Source of the DNA: Spirochaeta cellobiosiphila DSM 17781
GTDB lineage: Bacteria; Spirochaetota; Spirochaetia; DSM-17781
Assembly: GCF_000426705.1 (NCBI RefSeq)
Contig: NZ_KE384556.1
Span: 366,876-430,875 of the forward strand
Reading direction: 5' to 3'
Length of the DNA stretch: 64,000 nucleotides
Made by a program: the position numbers and the translations under genes. A model generated the notes under the pieces. The model was not told the origin of the DNA, ran no database searches, and was given only the letters and a program-made list of their open reading frames with translations. Below, piece after piece: positions 16,137 to 20,483 of the stretch (its first letter is position 1; each line of letters starts with the position of its first letter).

Positions 16137-17429
16137 ATGGGTAAAACAATAGCTGAAAAAATATTCGATGCTCATCGAATAGATACTCAACCCGGAGACA
16201 TTAACGTACTCAGTCTTGATGCCGTGTTCTGTCATGAGATCACAACACCAATTGCCATTACAGACTTGGTTAGCAGAGGTAAAGATAGAGTTTTTGATCC
16301 TGATAAAATCAAGGTGGTCATCGATCATGTTAGCCCTGCCAAGGATTCTAAAACGGCAGAACAAGGCAAAATATTACGTGATTGGGCCAAAAGACAAGGT
16401 ATAAAGGATTTCTTTGATATTGGACGAAATGGAGTATGCCATGCCATTTTTCCGGAAAAGGGTTTTAGCCGACCAGGCTACACAATCATCATGGGTGACA
16501 GTCACACCTGCACTCATGGTGCTTTTGGAGCCTTTGCAGCAGGTGTCGGAACCACAGACCTGGAAGTGGGAATATTAAAGGGTGTATGTACTTTTAAAAG
16601 CCCTAAGACCATCAAAGTAGATCTACAAGGTGTTCTGAACAAAGGGGTCTATGCCAAGGATATCATCTTATATGTCATAAAAAAATTAGGAGTCAATGGA
16701 GCTACTAACAAAATCATTGAGTTCGTAGGTCCTGTCATAGACAACATGTCTATGGAAGCGCGAATGACTCTATGTAATATGGCCATCGAAGCAGGGGGAA
16801 CAAGTGGTATCTGTTACCCTGATCAAGTAACCGTAGATTACCTATGGCCTTTCATCCAATCAGAGTACAAAACCAAAGAAGAAGCCCTCCAAGATTATCA
16901 AAAATGGATTAGTGATAAAGATGCCATCTATGATAGCTCCTTACGAATTGATGTCAGTAGCATTGGTCCTCAATCCACTATAGGATACAAGCCTGATCAA
17001 GTATCAGATATAAGCGAATTAGGACGGACTCCTGTCAATCAAGTCTACATTGGAAGTTGTACCAATGGTCGTATCGAAGACTTACGTGAAGCGGCGAAAG
17101 TGCTAGATGGCCAAGTCATTCATGAAGATGTTCGTGCCATTGTATCTCCTGCAACTCCAGGAGTCTATAAAGAGGCCCTAAAAGAAGGTCTTATCGACAT
17201 CTTCATGGAAGCAGGTTTTTGTGTGACCAATCCCACATGCGGTGCCTGCCTGGGTATGAGTAATGGTGTATTAGCTGAAGGGGAAGTTTGCGCCTCCACT
17301 ACCAATCGTAACTTTAATGGTCGTATGGGTAAAGGGGGAATGGTACATCTCATGAGCCCTGCCAGTGCCGCAGCAAGTGCCATTAAGGGATATATAACAA
17401 CAGCAGATAGATTAAAGGAGGTCTCTTAA
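16137..17429 (+). CDS. leuC: 3-isopropylmalate dehydratase large subunit
   Basis: Aconitase-family subunit of 430 residues that isomerises 2-isopropylmalate to 3-isopropylmalate in leucine synthesis, with LeuD. The [4Fe-4S] ligands are visible in YIGSCTNGR and TNPTCGACLG. The MGDSHTCTHGAFG active-site segment is present. The length fits the shorter, homoaconitase/archaeal-like LeuC class, so a role on a related substrate cannot be excluded. It overlaps leuD by one base (TAATG). Other leu genes are not in the window. Confidence 0.93.
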   Translation: MGKTIAEKIFDAHRIDTQPGDINVLSLDAVFCHEITTPIAITDLVSRGKDRVFDPDKIKVVIDHVSPAKDSKTAEQGKILRDWAKRQGIKDFFDIGRNGVCHAIFPEKGFSRPGYTIIMGDSHTCTHGAFGAFAAGVGTTDLEVGILKGVCTFKSPKTIKVDLQGVLNKGVYAKDIILYVIKKLGVNGATNKIIEFVGPVIDNMSMEARMTLCNMAIEAGGTSGICYPDQVTVDYLWPFIQSEYKTKEEALQDYQKWISDKDAIYDSSLRIDVSSIGPQSTIGYKPDQVSDISELGRTPVNQVYIGSCTNGRIEDLREAAKVLDGQVIHEDVRAIVSPATPGVYKEALKEGLIDIFMEAGFCVTNPTCGACLGMSNGVLAEGEVCASTTNRNFNGRMGKGGMVHLMSPASAAASAIKGYITTADRLKEVS

Positions 17430-17956
17430 TGAAAAGCTTTGAAGGTAAAGCCCTATTCCTTGATAGATCAGATATAAATACTGACGAGATTATTCCTGCA
17501 AAGTATCTAACAGAGATTACCAAGATAGCTCTTAAACCTTACTTGTTAGAAGATTTAAAAGTAGAAGGGTTTGATCCATCTAGAGATCTTAATGATATTA
17601 AAGTTATAGTCACAAGAGACAATTTTGGATGCGGATCAAGCCGTGAACATGCCCCATGGGCACTTGAAATGAACGATATCAATTTGGTTATAGCAGAAGG
17701 CTATGCCCGAATATTTAGACAAAACATGTTTAACTGTGGAATGATGGCCCTGGAGCTTAGCAAAAAACAAATAGATGAGATTTTTAATGAGTTCCAAAAC
17801 GAACCAGAGGTGACCATATCAGCAGATCTGGACAGAATGACTTTATCAATCAACTCAAGTTCTCATCAAAAAATAATGCCTTTCAAAATATCAGACTTTG
17901 ACCTTGATCTTATAAAGGCGGAAGGCTGGGTAAACTTCGCAGACTCTCGGTATTAA
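17429..17956 (+). CDS. leuD: 3-isopropylmalate dehydratase small subunit
   Basis: The swivel-domain partner of LeuC, 175 residues. The signature is DRSDINTDEIIPAKYL at the N-terminus and NFGCGSSREHAPWAL around residues 67-81, which includes the substrate-binding SSREH. AAAGGAGG at the end of leuC is its ribosome binding site. The unit ends in the hairpin at 18034-18060. Confidence 0.95.
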   Translation: MKSFEGKALFLDRSDINTDEIIPAKYLTEITKIALKPYLLEDLKVEGFDPSRDLNDIKVIVTRDNFGCGSSREHAPWALEMNDINLVIAEGYARIFRQNMFNCGMMALELSKKQIDEIFNEFQNEPEVTISADLDRMTLSINSSSHQKIMPFKISDFDLDLIKAEGWVNFADSRY

Positions 17957-17969
17957 TATAATTTTAGTA

Positions 17970-18080
17970 CTGTACTTTTTATAAAAAAGTCAGACCTTTT
18001 CGTCAATTATGTCTGACCTTTTACCCTATTTTGTCAGACCTTTTTACTTAAAAGGTCTGAGCTTTTTGATATAAGTACAG
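17970..18080. repeat. 111-bp inverted-repeat element with three 22-bp-spaced internal repeats
   Basis: The ends are 31-base arms (17970-18000 and 18050-18080) that match as reverse complements at 25 of 31 positions, including perfect CTGTACTT/AAGTACAG tips. Inside, GTC[AT]GACCTTTT occurs at 17989, 18011 and 18033, exactly 22 bases apart, and a fourth inverted copy lies at 18050. There is no open reading frame. It could be a MITE-like element or a phased binding array. No clear target-site duplication is seen. Confidence 0.7.
18034..18066 (+). terminator. Hairpin terminating leuCD, formed by two repeat copies
   Basis: TCAGACCTTTT (18034-18044) pairs perfectly with AAAAGGTCTGA (18050-18060), followed by GCTTTTT. 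The stem is made from the last two copies of the 22-bp-spaced repeat. Confidence 0.65.
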
Positions 18081-18095
18081 TGGGAATGAGAATAT

Positions 18096-18191: not shown

Positions 18192-20483
18192 ATGAGGAAA
18201 ATACCACTAACAAAACAACTGGGATTTAAACAGGCTCTTCAGAATACAATTATTGTATTGATATTGATTTTAACACTTGTGTCCATTACGACAGGAGCCA
18301 TACAGAAAGCTTTGCTGTCGAAAAACTTTGATCAATTGCACAGTGTCCTAGTCTTGAAAAAACTGCAAGTCATTGACTATTTACAGGAAAAACAAAAAAA
18401 CATTAAAACAGCTAGCATAAATCCGGATATAAATGAATATGTATTGGAACTTATACAATATCATAATGAAATGGGGATAGGAACCGATGAAGGATTTGAT
18501 ATCTCCAGCTCTGGGTCACAAGTAACACAACCCTATTCTAAAATAGAAGAAAAAATATACGCAGCATTACAACCTTATTCCCGGATCTATGACATAAATG
18601 ATATTTACCTGATATGTTCCCGCCATGGACATGTCATGTTTTCCTTAAAAAAAAGAGATGATTTTCCTAGCAATATTGCCCAGGGAAGGTATAAAGATAG
18701 TGTTATAAACCGACTATGGAAGACGGTTGTAAGCACAAAACAAATACAGTTTGCAGATATTGATCTATATGCACCTGCTAATAATGAACCTGTATTATTA
18801 GTGGGAGCCCCTGTTTTTAATGGGGAGGAACTTCTGGCTGTAATGGTATTTGACTTACCAATTCAAAAAATCACCAATATTTTACAGGAAAAAAGTGGCA
18901 TGGGCTCTACGGGAGAATCTTATCTGGTAGGACAAGATTTTCGAATGAGGACCTCTTCCTTACTAGATCCTATCCAACATTCCTTAAAAGCCTCCTTTAA
19001 CGGACCTATAGAAAAGAACGGGGCAAAAACAGAGGCTGCAGGCAAAGCTTTACAGGGCGAAGAAAATGAAGGAAGTGCAACAGATTATCGAGATATAAAG
19101 GTATTTGCCGCTTGGAGTCCTCTCATAGAAAATACGCTGAACTGGGGGATTGTTTCTAAAATAGATCAATCAGAAGTTCTGACACCTCTCCATGGGATCT
19201 ACAGAACTATGACAATACTGGGATTAATATCCTTTATCATTGTGACTATTCTATCCTTACTCCAGGTAAAAGGGCTAACAAACCCTCTGAACGACCTAAT
19301 TGAAGCTTCTACTGAAATCGCCCAGGGGAACTTATCCTTCACCGTAAAAGACATGAAGAGACAGGATGAACTTGGTTTACTACATTCGCAATTCAAAGAC
19401 ATGATTGACTCTTTGACTGCCAAGGAAGAAGTTATCCATGCCATCGCTCAGGGGTCTGGTGACTTTACCGTTAAGGTTAAACTATCCTCACAAAATGATA
19501 GTTTTGGTCAGAATCTTCAGAATATGCTATCCAATCTAAATCAAGTATTACAAAAGGTTAGGAAGGCCTCCCTACAAGTATCAGAAGAAGCTGATCAAGT
19601 AAGTAATGCCAGTCAAAGCTTGAGTCAAGGATCAACAGAACAAGCCAGTGCCTTAGAACAGATATCAGCCTCCCTAACCTCTATTGAAGGACAATCCAAG
19701 CAAAATGCAGAGAATTCAGGGGAAGCCAATGCCTTGGTTAAACAGGCATTAATACAGGCTAGTGATGGTAATTCATTAATGAGTGAACTCAAGAAAGCTA
19801 TGGATGAAATCAATCGTTCCTCAGATCAAATCGGGCGTATCGTCAAAGTCATTGACGATATAGCTTTTCAAATAAATCTCCTTGCTTTAAATGCGAATGT
19901 GGAAGCAGCCAGAGCAGGAAAATATGGTAAGGGTTTTGGGGTGGTGGCTGAAGAAGTAAGGAATCTGGCAGCCAAAAGTGCTGATGCCGTAAAAGAAACG
20001 ACAGCGATGATAAAAGGGACCCAAAGCAATATCAAATCAGGTTCCCAGATTGCACAGCAAACAGCAGAGCAATTGAACAATATATTCGAAGGCGTAGACA
20101 AGGTCGCTGATATCATTGAGGAGATCTCAATGGCGAGCAAGGAGCAAGCCCAGAATATAGCCGAAATATCCACTGGACTCTCTCAAATAGATACAGTGAC
20201 CCAGGGAAATACAGCAAGTGCTGAAGAAAGTGCAGCAGCCGCTCAGGAGTTAGCCTCCCAGAGCCAATTCGTTATGAACTTAATATCCCAATTTAAACTA
20301 ATAGGAGACAATCCCAGTAACCAGACTTCTTTTGATCTTTCTCAAAAAGAAGATCACAAAGAAGATATTAAAAGACAAGCACTCCCTCCTATTGAACCTA
20401 AACGAAAAGAGGAAACGGGAATTAGACCACTCAACCCTGAGGACATCATCTCCCTTGACGATGAAGATTTTGAAACATTCTGA
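18192..20483 (+). CDS. Methyl-accepting chemotaxis protein with C-terminal CheR-docking-like tail
   Basis: Receptor of 763 residues. An N-terminal membrane segment (about 20-42) is followed by a dCache-like extracellular domain (about 45-330), a second membrane segment (about 336-358), HAMP (about 360-410), and a signalling domain. The tip motif contains AFQINLLALNANVEAARAG and KGFGVVAEEVRNLA. After the hairpin comes a polar linker of about 60 residues ending in DFETF. That matches the aromatic-x-x-aromatic pentapeptide that tethers CheR/CheB in other bacteria (NWETF in Tar). GTAGAGG precedes the ATG. The ligand is unknown. Confidence 0.92.
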   Translation: MRKIPLTKQLGFKQALQNTIIVLILILTLVSITTGAIQKALLSKNFDQLHSVLVLKKLQVIDYLQEKQKNIKTASINPDINEYVLELIQYHNEMGIGTDEGFDISSSGSQVTQPYSKIEEKIYAALQPYSRIYDINDIYLICSRHGHVMFSLKKRDDFPSNIAQGRYKDSVINRLWKTVVSTKQIQFADIDLYAPANNEPVLLVGAPVFNGEELLAVMVFDLPIQKITNILQEKSGMGSTGESYLVGQDFRMRTSSLLDPIQHSLKASFNGPIEKNGAKTEAAGKALQGEENEGSATDYRDIKVFAAWSPLIENTLNWGIVSKIDQSEVLTPLHGIYRTMTILGLISFIIVTILSLLQVKGLTNPLNDLIEASTEIAQGNLSFTVKDMKRQDELGLLHSQFKDMIDSLTAKEEVIHAIAQGSGDFTVKVKLSSQNDSFGQNLQNMLSNLNQVLQKVRKASLQVSEEADQVSNASQSLSQGSTEQASALEQISASLTSIEGQSKQNAENSGEANALVKQALIQASDGNSLMSELKKAMDEINRSSDQIGRIVKVIDDIAFQINLLALNANVEAARAGKYGKGFGVVAEEVRNLAAKSADAVKETTAMIKGTQSNIKSGSQIAQQTAEQLNNIFEGVDKVADIIEEISMASKEQAQNIAEISTGLSQIDTVTQGNTASAEESAAAAQELASQSQFVMNLISQFKLIGDNPSNQTSFDLSQKEDHKEDIKRQALPPIEPKRKEETGIRPLNPEDIISLDDEDFETF

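Follow-up and report, generated by a model that had tools for sequence, protein, structure and literature searches.

The leuD gene of Spirochaeta cellobiosiphila DSM 17781 is followed by a 111-base stretch of inverted and regularly spaced repeats, and this raises the question of what kind of element has come to lie there. A sequence-only reading had named a dispersed repeat of MITE type that supplied the terminator, a phased binding array and a small structured RNA as the options. The window analyzed here comprises 64,000 bp (C26:366876-430875) of a genome of 3.95 Mb in 29 contigs. The element consists of four GTCWGAC-centred units with an exact period of 22 bp, set within imperfect inverted arms, and the distance from the leuD stop codon to unit 1 is 33 bp. 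The features of the locus, in positions of the window, are as follows.

17429-17956, + strand: leuD, 3-isopropylmalate dehydratase small subunit (ORF list; Pfam Aconitase_C)
17969-18081, no strand assigned: whole element, a dispersed copy of a four-unit 22-bp-phased array (sibling arrays elsewhere in the genome)
17970-18000, + strand: left inverted arm CTGTACTTTTTATAAAAAAGTCAGACCTTTT, including unit 1 (25/31 complementary to 18050-18080)
17989-18000, + strand: unit 1, GTCAGACCTTTT (pattern match)
18011-18022, + strand: unit 2, GTCTGACCTTTT (pattern match)
18033-18044, + strand: unit 3, GTCAGACCTTTT (pattern match)
18034-18070, + strand: intrinsic-terminator-like hairpin of units 3 and 4 (stem 18034-18060, 11 pairs) with T tract (terminator scan)
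18050-18080, + strand: right inverted arm (25/31 match to the left arm)
18055-18066, + strand: unit 4, GTCTGAGCTTTT, in phase, one mismatch (pattern match)
18192-20483, + strand: downstream gene on the same strand for a methyl-accepting chemotaxis protein (ORF list; Pfam)

The original observation holds base for base and lies far above chance. The two 31-base arms match at 25 of 31 positions, as had been read, and form the sole pair of such geometry scoring at least 23/31 in the 64-kb window; the perfect tips ascribed to them correspond to perfect runs of 8 bases (outer) and 11 bases (inner). The motif GTC[AT]GACCTTTT, described as recurring every 22 bases, was found at 17989, 18011 and 18033. 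The fourth copy, described as inverted, can indeed be read in this way at 18050-18061 because the core is palindromic, but it is also present as a direct, in-phase GTCTGAGCTTTT at 18055. When periods of 12 to 40 were scanned, the self-match of the element at lag 22 was 45/66, while the other lags reached at most 36 anywhere in the window, and none of 300 dinucleotide shuffles of the region attained the lag-22 score.

Folding of the transcript gave z values of -5.4 (+ strand) and -6.7 (- strand) for the whole element. The stem at 18034-18060 is followed by the T tract GCTTTTT, giving a stable hairpin with a T tract downstream of leuD; the terminator scan at this place detected one such hairpin against 0.6 expected in shuffles. 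The earlier claim that the last two copies form the leuCD terminator stands as far as the hairpin and the T tract are concerned; termination itself is a prediction, according to which the leuCD transcript probably ends at the hairpin of units 3 and 4. A small structured RNA is not supported, since the Rfam search of the element revealed nothing above the noise or gathering score and the complementarity between spacers of neighbouring units was below that of random pairing. A model in which the hairpins drive the repeat structure, tried by a spacer covariation test, was not supported.

A whole-genome pattern search revealed five four-unit arrays of the window type (C26:384864, in the window; C26:277322; C25:301975; C25:357762; C1:382159), while control patterns gave about 0. 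Sibling arrays are identical at up to 87% of positions over 91 bp. The absence of any other copy would have spoken against a repeat family; with four further arrays at unrelated sites this objection fails, and the description as a dispersed repeat is right. All five arrays are located downstream of at least one gene, three of them between convergent genes, and two overlap gene 3' ends. Near sod, a separate terminator-like hairpin is already present upstream of the array. The outer arms are significantly complementary in just two of the five arrays, and the unit centres alternate between A and T in 14 of 15 neighbouring pairs. Two further two-unit copies (C25:369589 and C25:370658) belong to a duplicated region. 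It should be mentioned that this region (L096) contains a duplicated lipoprotein-like gene pair with a period of ~1.07 kb, each gene copy having at its 3' end a two-unit GTCAGACC hairpin that looks like a simple terminator. The window-type array was absent from 393 genomes of the phylum and 248 of the class, where two isolated single matches with two mismatches were the only ones seen.

One sibling array (C25:301975-302047) overlaps by 13 bp the 3' (stop) end of a gene, C25:302034-302726, encoding a 230-aa ORF of the HU superfamily. The protein matches PF14848 (HU-DNA_bdg; 3.6e-19, 69.5 bits against a cut-off of 30) and PF18291 (HU-HIG; 5e-7, 30.2 bits against a cut-off of 26.2). Its AlphaFold2 model (pLDDT 80.7) has as its best PDB match 4fmr, a Bacteroides DNA-binding protein (E 2e-11), which was also found by profile (3e-20). 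We therefore count the protein as one with a predicted HU-like fold and a C-terminal Ig-like domain, its domain arrangement being uncertain because the global TM against 4fmr is only 0.36; PF14734 (DUF4469 Ig-like) was detected only in the paralogues of families e and h (we designate families of HU-adjacent arrays by letters). The HU proteins of this genome form one clade (support 0.86) and are about 230-260 aa long.

In total, PF14848 had 13 matches in this genome, some of them at contig ends that are probably duplicated assembly ends, and none in 22 other spirochaete genomes. Since T. denticola TDE_2259 is reported to contain PF14848 and PF14734 (PMC12724145), the family is patchy in the phylum. 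Some HU-like genes run off contig ends (C2:1-454; C3:6-173; C4:173906-174377). Across the part they share, the C2 gene and the HU gene of C29 are nearly identical, and the draft assembly therefore seems to break at repeated gene/array loci.

The HU-like genes of this genome are associated with different phased arrays. Nine of the 10 HU genes with usable flanks have an array of lag 22 or lag 23 scoring at least 36/66 within 300 bp, a level reached by random loci of 1.2 Mb of the same genome with P of 0.009 (lag 22) and 0.0015 (lag 23). Some of the HU genes are recent duplicates, and when these three were counted once, an array was found beside seven of eight genes. In all eight families tested (family d at lag 44), none of 300 shuffles reached the array score. 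Array sequences differ between the HU-gene subfamilies, examples being TTAGAAGGNCCTTCTAA upstream of C24:308137, GGTCTAAGNAAA beside C26:213551 and GTGACAGGCTAGAATT beside C24:555671 and the duplicates of that gene. In two families the array is located directly upstream of the gene. The sister proteins c and f are 52% identical and have related arrays, both of them upstream. As a rule, array similarity rises with protein identity (Spearman 0.50, the pairs not being independent).

Copies of the HU-adjacent arrays were revealed elsewhere in the genome by a scan for all families that covered 1.2 Mb of the 3.95 Mb. At lag 22, 18 sites scored at least 40/66 (two of them N runs), against two to six such sites for each of the other periods from 16 to 30 in the same 1.2 Mb, and, among the real lag-22 sites listed, only two fall outside the HU-adjacent families. 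Family c has six dispersed copies, g four (the window element among them), a two or three, b three or four, f one and d one weak copy; families e and h had none in the part searched. Nine of 17 dispersed copies are located between convergent genes, compared with 39 of 350 background gaps (11%), as judged with a crude gene caller. Besides these, C24:230684-230975 (L290:10720-10940) contains a near-perfect 22-bp tandem repeat CCTCAGTGAGCTTTAGAGAATT, interrupted by N, that lies outside all HU-adjacent array families found.

Arrays of GTCWGAC units recur in other phyla. In a scan of public genomes the two-unit pattern was found as long arrays in Verrucomicrobia UBA4286, Kiritimatiellae RGIG9733 and the uncultured RUG10619, and in a shorter form in Bacteroidales MAGs; further Bacteroidales contain related families of period 22 bp whose spacers differ. 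Across phyla, conservation extends to the core and the 22-bp period, and not to the T tract or the hairpin pairing. The Bacteroidales genomes searched encode HU-HIG proteins in many copies, and the association with arrays was revealed outside S. cellobiosiphila as well: of 44 HU-HIG/PF14848 loci in other genomes, 19 are accompanied within 700 bp by a 21-23-bp array with a score of at least 40, against at most one locus for each control period at the same 44 loci. About half of the HU-HIG/HU matches, some of them canonical HU, have no array nearby. As an independent test, loci of two Bacteroidales genomes (G425 and G426) were fetched by the GTCWGAC pattern alone and then compared with the HU-HIG-adjacent arrays of the same genome; they matched them at up to 1e-26 and at 2e-17, respectively, and 60 kb of own-genome control sequence gave no matches. 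A HU-HIG ORF of G464 is preceded, at a distance of 28 bp, by a GTCWGAC array. Two genomes (G422 and G423) with many GTCWGAC arrays had no detectable HU-HIG gene; perhaps these MAGs are incomplete, or the link is not obligate.

Several of these genomes have peculiarities of their own. In the Bacteroidaceae MAG G425 (L192-L196, L258), GTCWGAC arrays continue into 21-22-bp AAAACTTTTG repeats, forming composite arrays, and the AAAACTTTTG repeats match the array beside a HU-HIG gene. In RUG10619 (G424; L184:2715-3193, L187:120-466, L185, L186), the arrays are located inside dispersed repeats of at least 350 bp whose flanks are conserved and differently combined. The Bacteroidales G462 (L202-L206) and G448 (L207-L211) have 22-bp array families of their own (TCYGACTTAAGTCRGA; GCTCAGACGAAAATTTCCGAGC). 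These are highly homogeneous, up to 93-96% identical between loci, and have therefore apparently spread recently.

We consider it likely that the leuD element represents a satellite of a phased array belonging to an HU-superfamily (HU-HIG/PF14848) protein. Most likely, it is a candidate binding array for the protein of C25:302034-302726, a satellite that landed at a gene 3' end. Of the options raised earlier, the repeat family was on the right track, and a phased binding array appears to be the best supported functional reading because arrays of this type adjoin the gene of a HU-like, putatively DNA-binding protein. The pairing of gene and array rests on statistics; binding, function and dispersal we infer.

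The unit of the proposed system would be the gene of a HU-like DNA-bending protein with, at one gene end, a private array whose palindromic sites recur at intervals of 21-23 bp, copies of the array being scattered intergenically, preferentially at gene 3' ends. For the window family, the HU-like gene C25:302034-302726 with the four-unit array overlapping its 3' end would represent the home locus. Because the period equals two helical turns, the palindromic sites lie on one face of the helix, and they would therefore suit cooperative binding and bending by HU-type dimers. Each HU-like protein may recognise its own array, with a dimer on every palindromic unit, giving a bent or wrapped complex. 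The bound array could organise or insulate the 3' intergenic DNA, or regulate the protein's own gene. Array copies may have spread by a possibly selfish route, may have been kept at 3' ends because they insulate or terminate there, or may owe their distribution to both, and the leuD copy would double as a terminator.

The reading that survives best beside this one assumes that a non-autonomous mobile element (MITE) carries the array and that the HU-like genes are passengers of mobile DNA, hence the association. The occurrence of copies at unrelated loci, the patchy phyletic distribution, the arrays that extend into two genes and recode their 3' ends, and the location of the G424 arrays within larger 350-bp repeats are consistent with it. 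However, alignments of the copies revealed no shared terminal inverted repeats, the outer arms being different, and no target-site duplications; the arrays had no match in phage and plasmid collections, no HU relatives were found in viral contigs, and most families differ in sequence while keeping the period. The MITE-like element suggested earlier is thus not established, as a Y1 transposase, the type searched for in the genome, target-site duplications and shared terminal inverted repeats were not found; we regard it as a possible but unlikely reading that lacks the hallmarks of such elements. Pattern matches to the arrays in viral contigs were nil or mostly simple tandem repeats, and were set aside.

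Satellite arrays of HU-like proteins also have to be distinguished from ordinary bidirectional intrinsic terminators that were copied around, with the phasing and the HU association as by-products. The leuD hairpin with its T tract, the strong folding on both strands, the 3' placement and the A/T alternation of unit centres in 14 of 15 neighbours, which favours pairing, agree with terminators. Nevertheless, in the related arrays of Verrucomicrobia and Bacteroidales the period of 22 bp and the core are conserved but the T tract is mostly lacking and the alternation is not maintained, spacers of neighbouring units are less complementary than random ones, and the sod copy has its own terminator-like hairpin upstream. 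Since this explanation also leaves the HU association and the family-specific arrays unaccounted for, we find it very unlikely.

It is highly improbable that the arrays are REP/BIME-like selfish repeats moved by a Y1 (RAYT) transposase, with the HU gene an incidental neighbour. They do resemble REPs as dispersed palindromic extragenic repeats at gene 3' ends, and Y1_Tnp genes are present in G422-G424, which have the same array type. However, REPs are reported as tied to a cognate RAYT (PMC2817692), and a search for Y1_Tnp (PF01797) gave no match in the S. cellobiosiphila genome, with positive controls, or in G425-G427; moreover, the Y1 genes of G422-G424 have no arrays alongside, whereas HU genes do. 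Operator arrays of a conventional transcription regulator are scarcely probable: the GGTCTGACC core resembles GntR-type (PdhR/FadR/LldR) operators, a literature search on the string having given PdhR and LldR papers, and the array lies directly upstream of the HU gene in two HU families, but the dispersed copies are mostly at gene 3' ends with few in divergent gaps, the neighbouring genes form no regulon, and families with unrelated cores have the same period.

A phased array belonging to an HU-superfamily protein thus remains the preferred reading of the leuD element. A point against it is that HU proteins usually show little sequence specificity in binding. To our knowledge no target of HU-HIG proteins is known. 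Since many HU-HIG genes have a private array beside them, a candidate site can be named for each paralogue, and the function of these proteins becomes open to direct tests. If the reading is confirmed, HU-fold proteins would be seen to act by a sequence specificity that they have acquired, and numerous unannotated extragenic repeats of 21-23 bp, in Bacteroidales as in other genomes, would be accounted for. In a more general form, it can be hypothesized that each lineage-expanded HU-like protein recognises a private, rapidly diverging, helically phased array that seeds itself round the chromosome. Such pairs of a sequence-specific HU protein and its satellite DNA would form an undescribed class, widespread among Bacteroidales and patchy among Spirochaetota, with related arrays known from Verrucomicrobia/Kiritimatiellae; in our estimate this has an even chance of being right. 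The protein-plus-array system is apparently undescribed, the literature search having revealed no open paper that describes HU-HIG arrays.

Dedicated proteins that act on dispersed or tandem palindromic or phased sites are known from ParB-parS, MatP-matS and plasmid iterons, the last of which are often about 22 bp long. Those proteins have different folds, and the genome studied here has many paralogues, each with its own array. Among HU proteins, PG0121 of P. gingivalis prefers, in vitro, the capsule-locus inverted repeat of 77 bp to a non-specific 77-mer, and here too a HU-family gene lies near a long inverted repeat (PMC3969353). Unlike the proteins described above, PG0121 is a canonical HU with a single long inverted repeat, for which no phased units or dispersed family are described (PMC3969353). 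The HU-HIG/PF14848 proteins with an Ig-like DUF4469 domain (Bacteroides 4fmr, BVU_2165; T. denticola TDE_2259, PMC12724145) share the N-terminal domain with those of S. cellobiosiphila and have the same HU plus Ig-like layout, PF14734 being detected in some of the paralogues; in contrast to the latter, the open papers searched describe no cognate DNA arrays beside them.

The remaining comparison is with REP elements, BIMEs and REPINs with their RAYT transposases (Nunvar 2010, PMC2817692; Bertels and Rainey 2011, PMC3116915). Unlike in these systems, the protein is of the HU superfamily and not a Y1 nuclease, the array is located at one gene end instead of forming two inverted flanks, the about four units are strictly phased at 21-23 bp, and the copies are few, not hundreds. 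Like REPs, the arrays are short, dispersed, palindromic and extragenic, with five copies in the window family and more in others. In both cases palindromic repeats lie at the end or ends of a protein gene, with further copies scattered outside genes; repeats and protein seem to diverge together, and several protein/repeat families coexist in one genome.
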